From Arthrobacter sp. B6 (GTDB taxonomy: Bacteria; Actinomycetota; Actinomycetes; Actinomycetales; Micrococcaceae), in the NCBI RefSeq assembly GCF_001663775.1, contig NZ_KV467169.1:537013-601012 (forward strand): 64,000 bases of DNA, in the 5' to 3' direction. Shown here piece by piece: positions 44,707 to 50,213 of this stretch. Each line of letters opens with the position of its first letter. The first letter of the stretch is position 1. Both the position numbers and the translations under genes were made by a program. Under the pieces are notes generated by a model. That model searched no databases and was not told where the DNA came from. It saw nothing but the letters and a program-made list of their open reading frames with translations.

Positions 44707-44887
44707 CCCTCTAGCCTACCGGCGGCCGCCACGTGGACGAATTTGAGCGTTGAGGGGCGCCCTGGCTATGTCCGGCCGCCGTGGTCTTCAGACACAGCGG
44801 CGCACGGACGAATCACAGGCTGAACCATTACGCTGAATCCGACGTTGAGAACACAGTAAGCACCCAGCCCACGAAACGAGACCCTTC

Positions 44888-45364
44888 ATGAGACCGTCAG
44901 TCCGCAAGAGTGTTTTCGCCGGCATCGCCGGCCTTTCCCTCGCAGGAACGGTGGCCGGCTGTGCGCCGTCCGCCACGCAGGGCACGCCGGCAACCACCGG
45001 GGGCACCTCACCCGAAGCATCCGCTTCCACCCCCTCGAGCACGTCGTCCTCGCTCGCCAGCAGCGGTTCCGTCTACAAGGACGGTACGTACAGCGCCGAC
45101 GGCACGTACGTTTCCCCGAACGGCACCGAAACTGTCGGCGTGGAACTGACCCTCGCTTCGGGCAATGTCACAGCAGTCAACATCACGCAGCATCCTTCCA
45201 ACCCAAACACCCGGAAATTCCAGGGCGAGTTTGCCGGCGGGATTGCAGATCAAATCGTGGGAAAGAGCATCGACGAACTGAACGTCTCCAAGGTGGCGGG
45301 GTCCTCGCTCACCAGCGGCGGCTTCAACCAGGCAGTGGACAAGATCAAGGCGGAGGCCCAGTAA
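44888..45364 (+). CDS. FMN-binding domain lipoprotein
   Basis: A 158-residue exported lipoprotein. The lipobox is VAGC (Cys25) after a short hydrophobic signal, then about 35 Ser/Thr/Ala residues as a linker, then an FMN_bind domain (YKDGTYSADGTYVSPNGTE, then VNITQHPSNPNTRKF). The flavinylation motif, SGATLTS in NqrC, reads AGSSLTSGG here (residues 137-145), so the acceptor would be Ser140. ApbE, which attaches FMN, is encoded four bases downstream, and the presumed electron donor follows. It is inferred to be a surface flavin redox carrier. Confidence 0.86.
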   Translation: MRPSVRKSVFAGIAGLSLAGTVAGCAPSATQGTPATTGGTSPEASASTPSSTSSSLASSGSVYKDGTYSADGTYVSPNGTETVGVELTLASGNVTAVNITQHPSNPNTRKFQGEFAGGIADQIVGKSIDELNVSKVAGSSLTSGGFNQAVDKIKAEAQ

Positions 45365-45367
45365 ACC

Positions 45368-46240
45368 GTGCCGCAGCCGGACTGGGACGGGTTCACCTTC
45401 GACGGGATCGGCACCCGCTGGGAAATATCCACGCCCCGGCCCATTAACGGCACCCTCAGCGCGCGGCTGCTGGCCGTTGTCGAGCGGTACGACGGCGACT
45501 GGTCCCGGTTCCGGCCCGATTCAACCGTCACTGCCATGACCCGCGCGGCGGGGCGGTACGAACTGCCGGAAGAGGCGGCTGCCCTCGGCAGTCTGTACCG
45601 CACCCTGTACGACATCACGGCCGGGGCCATGACGCCGTTGATTGGTGGCAGCCTGGAACAGCTGGGGTACGACGCGTCCTATTCCCTCCGGCCCGCAGGC
45701 CCGCCGGTTCCAGCGCCCCGTTGGGAGGATGCCCTGGCCTGGGACGGCAGCGAACTAATAACTTCCGTCCCGCTGGTCCTGGACATCGGAGCCGCGGGGA
45801 AAGGGCAGCTCGTGGATCTCCTGGCCGCGGAACTACGTTCACACGGGGAGGACAACTTCCTGATCGATGCCAGCGGGGACCTGCTTCACAGCGGCCCTGA
45901 CCCTGTGACGGTGGCCATGGAGCATCCGTACGATCCGACCAGGGCCATCGGCACGGTGTCGCTGGCAGGCGGGGCATTGTGCGCATCTGCCTCAAACCGT
46001 CGGGTGTGGGGCGACGGCTTGCACCATGTGCTGGAAGGAACCACCGGGCGTCCCGTCAGCACTGCGGTGGCTACATGGACGATGGCGGAAAGCACCATGG
46101 TGGCCGACGCCCTTGCAACAGCGCTGTTCTTCGTTCCCGGCGCGGTGCTGGAACGCACCTTTGATTTTTCCTGGCTGACGGTATTTTCTGATGGCAGCGC
46201 GGCCTATTCGGCCGGATTTGAAGGGACACTTTTCACATGA
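45368..46240 (+). CDS. apbE: FAD:protein FMN transferase ApbE
   Basis: Transfers FMN from FAD to a Thr/Ser of target proteins; 290 residues. Motifs: GIGTRWEIS at the start, DWSRFRPDS (substrate contact), DIGAAGKGQLVD (the Mg/FAD site), IDASGDLL, and HHVLEGTTGRPV. The start is GTG at 45368, three bases after the lipoprotein gene ends. No signal peptide is visible, although many ApbE proteins act outside the membrane. Its likely substrate is the preceding lipoprotein. Confidence 0.9.
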   Translation: MPQPDWDGFTFDGIGTRWEISTPRPINGTLSARLLAVVERYDGDWSRFRPDSTVTAMTRAAGRYELPEEAAALGSLYRTLYDITAGAMTPLIGGSLEQLGYDASYSLRPAGPPVPAPRWEDALAWDGSELITSVPLVLDIGAAGKGQLVDLLAAELRSHGEDNFLIDASGDLLHSGPDPVTVAMEHPYDPTRAIGTVSLAGGALCASASNRRVWGDGLHHVLEGTTGRPVSTAVATWTMAESTMVADALATALFFVPGAVLERTFDFSWLTVFSDGSAAYSAGFEGTLFT

Positions 46241-47796
46241 CCCCCGTTGACGCCCCCAAGGCGGGCGCAGCCGTTTCCCCTGCCGGCCGGCTGGATACCC
46301 TGCTGGGCAAGTACACGATGTACCGGCTGATCCTGCTGGTCCTGGCAGCATTGGCCCTGTACAGCCTCCTGCTGAACGTCCTCGGGTGGCTCACGTTCGG
46401 CATCCCACAGATGGTGGTCCACCTGGCGCTGTGCCTTGGCCTGACCTATGTGTCTAACCGGGGGCTGGCCGCGCTGTTTCGGGTGCGACCGCATTCCGAA
46501 TCCTCGCTCATCACCGGCTTGCTCCTTTACTTCCTGTTCTGGCCCACGTTTGTACCCATGGACTTGGCAGGAGTGGCGCTGGCGTGTGTCCTGGCTTCCG
46601 CCTCCAAGTACGCGCTCGCGTGGCGTGGCCGGCATATCTTCAACCCGGCCGCGGCCGGGGCATTCATCACCGGGCTGACGGGGATGAACATTGCGACGTG
46701 GTGGGCCGCGACCCCGGCCATGTTGTGGCTGCTGGTCCCCGGCATCCTGCTGGTGCTTTACCGAACCCGCAAGTTTCTGATGGCCGCGGTTTTCCTCGTG
46801 GTTTCCACCGCGATCATCAGCGCAGAGCTGCTGCAGGCCGGCTTCTCCTTCGGCGGCGCGCTCTGGCAGGCGCTGGCGCAACGCCCCCTCCTGTTTTTTG
46901 TGGGCTTCATGCTGACGGAGCCGCTGACGCTTCCACCGCGCCGATGGCAGCAGCTCGCACTGGCCGCGGTGGTGGGGGTGGTGTTTGCGGTGCCGTACAA
47001 CCTCGGCTTTGTCGCCAACTCCCCGGAGCTGGCCCTGCTGCTGGGTAACCTGCTGGCGTTCCTGGCGGGACAACGGGGCGGGTTGAAACTGCGCTTCACC
47101 GGTTCCCGTCCCCTGACGCCGAGCACCACAGAGTTCGCTTTTGAGCCGTCCCGGCCCGTCCGCTTTGTCCCGGGACAGTACATGGAGCTCGATCTTCCGC
47201 ACGCCAAATCCGACGGCAAGGGGCGGCGCAGGGTGTTCAGCCTGACCAGCGCCCCGGGCTCGGCCTCGGTCAGGTTTGGAGTCCGGACGGCAGAGCCCCT
47301 GTCCGCAGCCAAGAAGGTGCTGCTCGCGCTGAAGCCGGGCGATCAGGTGACCGCCACTTCCGTGGGAGGGGACTTCGTCCTGCCGCGGGATCCGGCCACG
47401 CCGCTGCTGCTGATAGCGGCCGGGATCGGCATCACGCCCTATCTGGCGCACCTGGCCTCCGGGGCAGCGCAGGACCGGGACGTGGTTCTGCTGCTGCTGG
47501 CAAGAAACGCTGAAGAGATTGCCTACGCCGATGAGCTTCGTACGTCGGGAGCGCGGATCATTGCCCGCCTCGCGGACGGTTCCGTCCCGCCGTCGTTCAT
47601 CACTGGGGCCGGGACTGCTGCGGGCGCCGGCGGGGGTGCCCGACTGGACGGGGCATCACTGCAGGCCCTCGTGCCCGATATCGCGGCACGTACGGTCTAC
47701 GTCTCCGGATCTCCCGGCAGCGTGGCTTCGCTGCGCCGCGCGGCCAAGAAGGCAGGTGCGCGGCGCGTGCATGTGGACTCGTTTTCCGGGTACTGA
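46237..47796 (+). CDS. Fused NqrB/RnfD-like membrane domain and ferredoxin-NAD(P)+ reductase-like protein
   Basis: 519 residues. Residues about 25-285 form eight or more membrane helices with HIFNPAAAGAFITG, the NPAA signature of RnfD/NqrB, and FMLTEPLTLPP. Residues about 290-519 are a flavodoxin-reductase-like module: FVPGQYMELDL, RRVFSLTSAP (FAD), LIAAGIGITPYLAHL (NAD(P)) and VYVSGSPGSV. There is no [2Fe-2S] domain and no visible SGAT flavinylation motif. The ATG overlaps apbE by four bases. Inferred role: pass NAD(P)H electrons through the membrane to the flavinylated lipoprotein. Confidence 0.85.
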   Translation: MTPVDAPKAGAAVSPAGRLDTLLGKYTMYRLILLVLAALALYSLLLNVLGWLTFGIPQMVVHLALCLGLTYVSNRGLAALFRVRPHSESSLITGLLLYFLFWPTFVPMDLAGVALACVLASASKYALAWRGRHIFNPAAAGAFITGLTGMNIATWWAATPAMLWLLVPGILLVLYRTRKFLMAAVFLVVSTAIISAELLQAGFSFGGALWQALAQRPLLFFVGFMLTEPLTLPPRRWQQLALAAVVGVVFAVPYNLGFVANSPELALLLGNLLAFLAGQRGGLKLRFTGSRPLTPSTTEFAFEPSRPVRFVPGQYMELDLPHAKSDGKGRRRVFSLTSAPGSASVRFGVRTAEPLSAAKKVLLALKPGDQVTATSVGGDFVLPRDPATPLLLIAAGIGITPYLAHLASGAAQDRDVVLLLLARNAEEIAYADELRTSGARIIARLADGSVPPSFITGAGTAAGAGGGARLDGASLQALVPDIAARTVYVSGSPGSVASLRRAAKKAGARRVHVDSFSGY

Positions 47797-47988: not shown

Positions 47989-48010
47989 CGCGTTCCCTCG
48001 GCCCGAACTG

Positions 48011-48180
48011 CGCGAACGTACACTTGCGGCCCCTCCCAATCGCGCGAACGTACACTTGCGGCCCTCCCAATCGCGCGAACCTACACTTGCGCCCCTCCCA
48101 ATCGCGCGAACGTACACTTGCGCCCCTCCCAATCGCGCGAACGTACACTTGTGGCCCTCCCAATCGCGCGAACGAGCACC
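48011..48180. repeat. Tandem array of about 31-bp units
   Basis: Five units begin at 48011, 48043, 48074, 48105 and 48136 (spacing 32, 31, 31, 31), each reading CGCGAACGTACACTTG, then G/C-rich CGGCCCCTCCCAATCG with 1-3 changes. A sixth copy at 48167 diverges into GAACGAGCACCTCAGG, which is itself repeated at about 48203-48217. There are no unique spacers, so it is not a CRISPR array. An inverted copy of the unit lies at 50118-50142. Confidence 0.9.
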
Positions 48181-49843: not shown

Positions 49844-50213
49844 GGGCAGCTATTCCCCCAATAGTTTCAAGACGCCTCGCTCCGAACAATGCCTTAAGGG
49901 TAGCCCAGGTCACATTTCAGCGCCCAGAGTTATCCACAGCCACCCGTCATCGGTTCTACCATCGACTTGTTCAGATATGAAGTCACATACACAGCTGCGC
50001 GAACCCATAACAACCCTGCTAACCGGGCGACAGTTACCGCTCAAGAAAGCCCGCCACTTTTCGCTGCGATTCACAGCTCCGGCACTATTTCTCCACGCAC
50101 CCTCAAGCCAGCGAGGCGAGGGCCACAAGTGTACGTTCGCGCCCGGGGTGTGTTTGCAGGACTTTGTCGGTGGCCCCTCGTAGGCTGTTCCAACCAACTT
50201 GAGGGGGTAGGCC
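49844..50213. other. Intergenic region with one DnaA-box-like site
   Basis: 370 bases without a gene. TTATCCACA (49930-49938) matches a DnaA box, but it is single. GCGCGAACCC at about 49995 resembles the start of the repeat unit. The inverted repeat copy (50118-50142) lies near the right end. Promoters of the divergent lipoprotein and protease genes must lie here, but none is obvious. Confidence 0.45.
50118..50142 (-). repeat. Inverted copy of the array unit
   Basis: 25 bases exactly complementary to 48135-48159 in the tandem array (core GCGCGAACGTACACTTG on the minus strand). With the array it brackets the two exported-protein genes. Confidence 0.9.

Follow-up and report, generated by a model that had tools for sequence, protein, structure and literature searches.

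The three adjoining genes described here, located in a 64,000-nucleotide stretch of the Arthrobacter sp. B6 genome (the window), probably form an actinobacterial version of the NQR/RNF-like flavinylation systems known from the literature, in which electrons would pass from NAD(P)H to the FMN of a lipoprotein and from there to the outside. Gene set, gene order and motifs, as well as the absence of Rnf-Nqr subunits and of a leader on ApbE, are read directly from the sequence. Fused systems of this type are known from the work of Meheust et al. 2021, with modelling by Huang et al. 2024 (PMC8238504, PMC10979944, PMC11334425); passages of the earlier paper report 127 clusters in 127 genomes, mainly of Actinobacteria and CPR, with electrons flowing one way from NAD(P)H and with VIT1 in six clusters (PMC8238504). 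Both the system type and the path from NAD(P)H to a surface flavin are already published and not new. The first-pass annotation, which had proposed that same path through one fused protein, is in line with our findings and with the NQR/RNF-like model, but the novelty it implied is unsupported. What the sequences add here is a predicted G-S-S flavin acceptor as a clade trait, a signature in the partner ApbE, and a leaderless ApbE with an exported substrate. A fused membrane protein, a lipoprotein and a maturation enzyme make the operon a very small candidate system for exporting electrons across the membrane, and it is conserved among common soil actinobacteria.

All three open reading frames lie on one strand, exactly where the first-pass annotation had placed them (Table 1). 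Its statement that the genes "overlap or nearly touch" corresponds, by ORF coordinates, to a gap of 3 bp between the lipoprotein gene and apbE, which share a frame (TAA-ACC-GTG), and to an overlap of 4 bp between apbE and the fusion gene. With TAA one codon before it, apbE has no possible start further upstream. Its assignment of the products to an FMN_bind lipoprotein, to ApbE and to an RnfD/NqrB-like domain joined to a reductase holds as well, with several Pfam scores at or below threshold. One flank of the operon is occupied by a tRNA-Arg, the other by genes we take to be argS/lysA-like.

Table 1. Features of the operon region (positions in the window).
Feature	Position	Strand	Evidence
Upstream footprint TGAACC-N16-CGTTG	44821..44847	+	conserved columns, 67 aligned genus upstream stretches
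FMN_bind lipoprotein, 158 aa; lipobox-like VAGC with Cys25; predicted flavin acceptor Ser140 in AGSS	44888..45364	+	
ApbE, FAD:protein FMN transferase, 290 aa, without export signal	45368..46240	+	PF02424, 118 bits (cut-off 25.6)
RnfD/NqrB-like membrane half of fusion, residues 1-285	46237..47091	+	PF03116 sub-threshold, residues 161-274
FAD/NAD(P)H reductase half of fusion, about residues 286-519	47092..47796	+	RRVFS, GGDFVLP, GIGITP

Beside its Pfam match, ApbE matched solved FMN transferases (best E 4.2e-13), and genome searches revealed neither a second ApbE nor a second FMN_bind gene in the window's genome. ApbE and FMN_bind occur together in one cluster, as in the published systems, with FMN_bind scores that straddle the cut-off of 22 bits: 21.3 (E 4.5e-4) in the Pfam scan and 22.1 in the whole-genome search. 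A weak second genome match to the A2 profile (E 2.9e-4) covered profile positions 4-75, the signal/linker part, and was not counted as FMN_bind. Outside the genus, the PF04205 profile placed two lipoproteins (L161 and L242) over the cut-off and gave no match for a third (L159). As modelled by AlphaFold2 (mean pLDDT 65), the lipoprotein has strands and helices that fit FMN_bind, with weak support from Foldseek: no match reached E<=0.001, rank 1 was a lipoyltransferase, and ranks 2-5 were FMN_bind structures (SaFMN3, CbFMN4, CPE2226) at 0.011-0.032. A search of the PDB by sequence returned no FMN_bind relative.

Distribution was assessed in 59 genomes, 37 of the genus (here the Arthrobacter/Pseudarthrobacter/Paenarthrobacter group, the window's genome included) and 22 from elsewhere in the order. 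The fusion was present in 31 of the 37 (in G030 in two pieces), G009 had a remnant, and 5 had none; the 22 other-genus genomes showed, among the matches listed, the reductase part or little more. In a draw from the phylum, 15 of 396 genomes had a match to the membrane profile at E<=1e-5 (8 with at least 87 bits, 7 with 44 or less), and in a draw from the class 21 of 296 had one to the lipoprotein profile. For named genomes, the best 80 of 313 confirmed places were retained; these belong to Arthrobacter, Pseudarthrobacter and Paenarthrobacter plus one Micrococcaceae MAG, and this set overlaps with the genus set, having strains in common. A search for the same three-gene order, which the first-pass annotation had proposed, found the genes together in 30 of 30 genus loci besides the remnant and in 79 of the best 80 named loci, the remaining one (L079) ending at a contig end without a lipoprotein gene and being excluded from the 79. 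The overlap between apbE and the fusion gene is 4 bp in 66 of these 80 (best of 313). Sixteen operons from outside the genus were compared in addition; they do not include L245 (genus), L162 and L163 (GAT type), L165 (weak, other architecture), L246 (paralogue alone) and L247 (no match), and two of them are imperfect, with ∼2.6 kb between lipoprotein gene and apbE (L160) or the fusion in two pieces (L164). Disrupted loci (L061 and L063, for lipoprotein and ApbE also L040) were left out of the conservation counts of 29-30 rows. At about 6329-6663 of L063 (G009), fragments of the lipoprotein-gene start and the fusion end stand side by side as a deletion remnant. The internal stop in apbE of L040 (G026) and the split fusions of L061 (G030) and L164 (G352) reflect decay or sequencing errors. 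G397 encodes a second FMN_bind-like lipoprotein (L246:5481-5903) with AGASGCS at the acceptor place, and the 11 kb examined around it contain no ApbE or fusion match.

As the first-pass annotation had proposed, Ser140 is the acceptor candidate; it is the fourth residue of AGSS and opens the final helix in the lipoprotein model. The ApbE substrate motif given in passages of PMC12052999 is Dxx[S/T]GA[S/T], from which SKVAGSS of the window departs at three places, the Gly and the final Ser alone fitting. AGSS is no peculiarity of this one gene, G-S-S being invariant in the whole clade. GSSLTS was present in all 31 genus lipoproteins besides the remnant (27 SKVAGSS, 1 AKVAGSS, 3 SKVSGSS) and in 79 of 79 named loci (best 80 of 313), and GSSLT[SA] in every one of the 16 outside-genus operons, which fall into the families f19 (6), f24 (9) and f22 (1). 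Because of this constancy AGSS is read as a clade trait; its occurrence throughout the clade rules out a local mutation. In contrast to G-S-S, the remote fused systems L162 and L163 have NTVTGAT and DTVSGAT at the acceptor, which indicates that the motif changed inside the actinobacterial clade and was then kept.

The same departures could mean that the acceptor site is degenerate, FMN being bound non-covalently or not at all and ApbE being an FAD hydrolase or vestigial. AGSS lacks the canonical Asp, Ser/Thr and Ala, and according to passages of PMC12052999, an exchange of Ala for Val reduced the flavinylation of a tested protein and some ApbEs hydrolyze FAD. We consider this reading unlikely, given that G-S-S is invariant, that ApbE was always present in the intact operons examined, and that 5 of the 16 outside-genus operons retain Asp at the canonical place, 3 of them as DKVSGSS, which is canonical except for Ala replaced by Ser.

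Where L162 and L163 have ATSG[ST]Y, ApbE of the clade carries CxSAxNRRxW, irrespective of whether genus loci (30 of 31, the exception being the interrupted L040), named loci (80 of 80, best of 313) or operons outside the genus (15 of 16; L238 has CASAVTRRAW) are considered; among 30 further ApbE loci of actinobacteria, none shows the signature and the majority have ATSS there. The G-S-S motif and the ApbE signature co-occur, as common descent alone would already bring about. We tentatively suggest that they may constitute a clade-specific pair, in which the CxSAxNRRxW enzyme recognizes [A/S]GSS and flavinylates the lipoprotein in the cell, so that the FMN-loaded lipoprotein crosses the membrane. 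If this is true, a flavin exporter would not be needed, and extracytosolic proteins would be flavinylated by a route unlike that known for secreted ApbEs. A fixed G-S-S acceptor would also show how far the specificity of ApbE can move.

That ApbE has no export signal is a point missed in the first-pass annotation. The most hydrophobic 12 of the first 30 residues had a mean hydropathy between -0.23 and 1.46 in the 80 named ApbEs (best 80 of 313), compared with 1.58 to 2.27 in 74 of the 79 lipoproteins of that set, the other 5 having values of 1.21 or less. A lipobox-like site was present in 77 of these 79 lipoproteins (best 80 of 313 places), and twin Arg before the first Cys in 4, one of them frame-disturbed; Tat is therefore unlikely as the general export route. 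As ApbE lacks an export signal and its substrate has one, flavinylation probably precedes export of the lipoprotein; ApbE would transfer FMN from cytosolic FAD to Ser140 before or during export. For comparison, 76 of 118 actinobacterial genomes had an ApbE match and 30 of these loci were examined. In no case did a hydrophobic stretch and a lipobox occur together ahead of the domain, as judged by hydropathy and by eye on unannotated starts: L183 and L191 have lipobox-like strings in low-hydropathy stretches, L198 and L200 hydrophobic stretches without a lipobox. The ApbE of L163 starts directly at its domain. With no credible leader in 30 other loci, the notion that a leaderless ApbE is special to the window operon was rejected; leaderless ApbEs seem to be common in actinobacteria. 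Passages of PMC12052999 describe a cytosolic ApbE with a cytosolic target in Klebsiella and an ApbE needed in the periplasm in Salmonella, and Meheust et al. left genes without a predicted signal aside, according to passages of PMC8238504. A search of open literature listed no paper whose title or displayed abstract deals with a leaderless ApbE and an exported target. The leaderless enzyme raises the question of the export stage at which FMN is attached in actinobacteria.

The fusion protein has PF03116 and PF00175 in the expected order from N to C terminus, each below its Pfam cut-off when taken singly (21.7 bits against 27.7, and 19.4 bits against 22). In 12 diverse fusion members, PF03116 was recognized in 5 (best 1.7e-9) and PF00175 in 9 at E<=0.1. 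Profile alignment (hhalign) paired window residues 168-272 with residues 229-333 of E. coli RsxD (E 2.7e-4, probability 41%), which is suggestive, not conclusive, and in a joint alignment the motifs SSLITGLLL and SALLTGLLL matched and the FNPA motifs coincided. The proposed relation to RnfD rests on the PF03116 matches, the hhalign result and these shared motifs. From FNPA to the aligned block there are 29 residues in the window fusion versus 104 in RsxD; we take the flavin site of RsxD to lie inside this longer stretch, which has no counterpart in the fusion. A motif scan of the fusion found no [ST]GA[ST] flavinylation motif, and the NqrB/RnfD flavinylation site is absent from the membrane half. 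The shorter stretch agrees with the non-conservation of this site in the NQR/RNF-like membrane family reported in passages of PMC10979944 and PMC11334425. Searching PDB sequences with the membrane profile gave no match at E<=1, and no NqrB/RnfD relative was found in the PDB by sequence. For the fusion, AlphaFold2 yielded a poor model (mean pLDDT 67); the 50 Foldseek matches listed of 1203 are reductases and NADPH oxidases, with no NqrB/RnfD, and the oxidases stand at 17-22 A across the full length. For the C-terminal half, the best NCBIfam match was flavohemoprotein (7e-18, residues 308-440), followed by BenC (2e-12) and further reductases; each of these matches lies far below the cut-off of its own model. 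The claim that the fusion has no Fe-S domain was borne out, as it contains no C-x4/5-C-x2-C (2Fe-2S) motif and Cys66 and Cys117 are its only cysteines. So was the claim that there is no Nqr/Rnf complex: PF02508 (Rnf-Nqr; NqrD/E, RnfA/E) is absent from the window's genome, the same search giving matches in 4 of 14 control genomes. A genome search with PF03116 at E<=0.001 gave no match either, which is a weak negative because even the window fusion itself was missed.

In the proposed mechanism, FAD in the fusion's cytosolic half would be reduced by NAD(P)H, electrons would cross the membrane via a flavin bound non-covalently in the RnfD/NqrB-like half, as in the published model, and would then pass to the FMN of the lipoprotein and to an external acceptor, one way and without ion pumping. 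Passages on the modelled Ktedonobacter complex place a covalent flavin near a non-covalent site (PMC10979944, PMC11334425). The direction of flow is unreadable from sequence and Rnf is reversible, so the complex might run in reverse or work with quinones of the membrane pool, for example by passing electrons from outside to NAD(P)+. This is very improbable, as there is no second electron path and no ion-pump subunit, passages of the published proposal have electrons flow one way from NAD(P)H (PMC8238504, PMC11334425), and a related FMN_bind protein has, according to passages of PMC10339131, a potential of -184 mV, above that of NAD(P)H. Ferric iron species are a doubtful first guess for the external acceptor, with quinone-like compounds as the next guess. 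The operon neighbors inspected yielded nothing decisive on the acceptor and no linking iron or quinone gene.

Like the NQR/RNF-like systems in the published passages, the operon combines an FMN_bind lipoprotein and ApbE with a protein that joins an NqrB/RnfD-like part to PF00175, and it lacks the membrane flavinylation site; it differs in the [A/S]GSS acceptor and the ApbE signature, which these passages do not mention, and in its leaderless ApbE. MsrQ-like flavinylation systems are likewise widespread in Actinobacteria, but rely on a haem protein (PF01794) in the membrane, and no such Pfam match was obtained here. Two of the genes are homologous to NqrC/RnfG and NqrB/RnfD of Na+-NQR and RNF, whereas NqrD/E or RnfA/E are absent. 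The Listeria PplA/FmnB route has other membrane partners. As described in passages of PMC12052999, it also uses a flavinylated surface lipoprotein to carry electrons out. Its FmnB is extracytosolic according to the abstract of another paper, whereas the operon here has a leaderless ApbE and one fused membrane protein.

The conserved footprint upstream of the operon (Table 1) is, we presume, possibly an ECF-sigma-type promoter. It had 13 matches in the genome, compared with 1 for the reversed control. As the 12 others all lie inside ORFs of at least 136 aa and TGAACC is absent from the four distant upstream regions examined, no regulon is supported. Of the 6 f19 loci, 4 were inspected (L159, L161, L234 and L238), and a response regulator and a histidine kinase adjoin the operon in 4 of 4 (Pfam-tested in L238 only); a similar pair lies downstream in the remote system L162. 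A pyridine-nucleotide oxidoreductase, presumably FprA-like, is nearby in 5 of 6 f24 loci inspected (of nine; Pfam-tested in L236 only). In the window, the tRNA-Arg is followed by 5.3 tandem copies of the 31-bp repeat GCGCGAACGTACACTTG (48010-48174), with one inverted copy at 50126-50142. At no more than 2 mismatches, the genome contains 145 copies, while the reversed control gives 1. Many of the copies form tandem or inverted pairs, which is REP-like.
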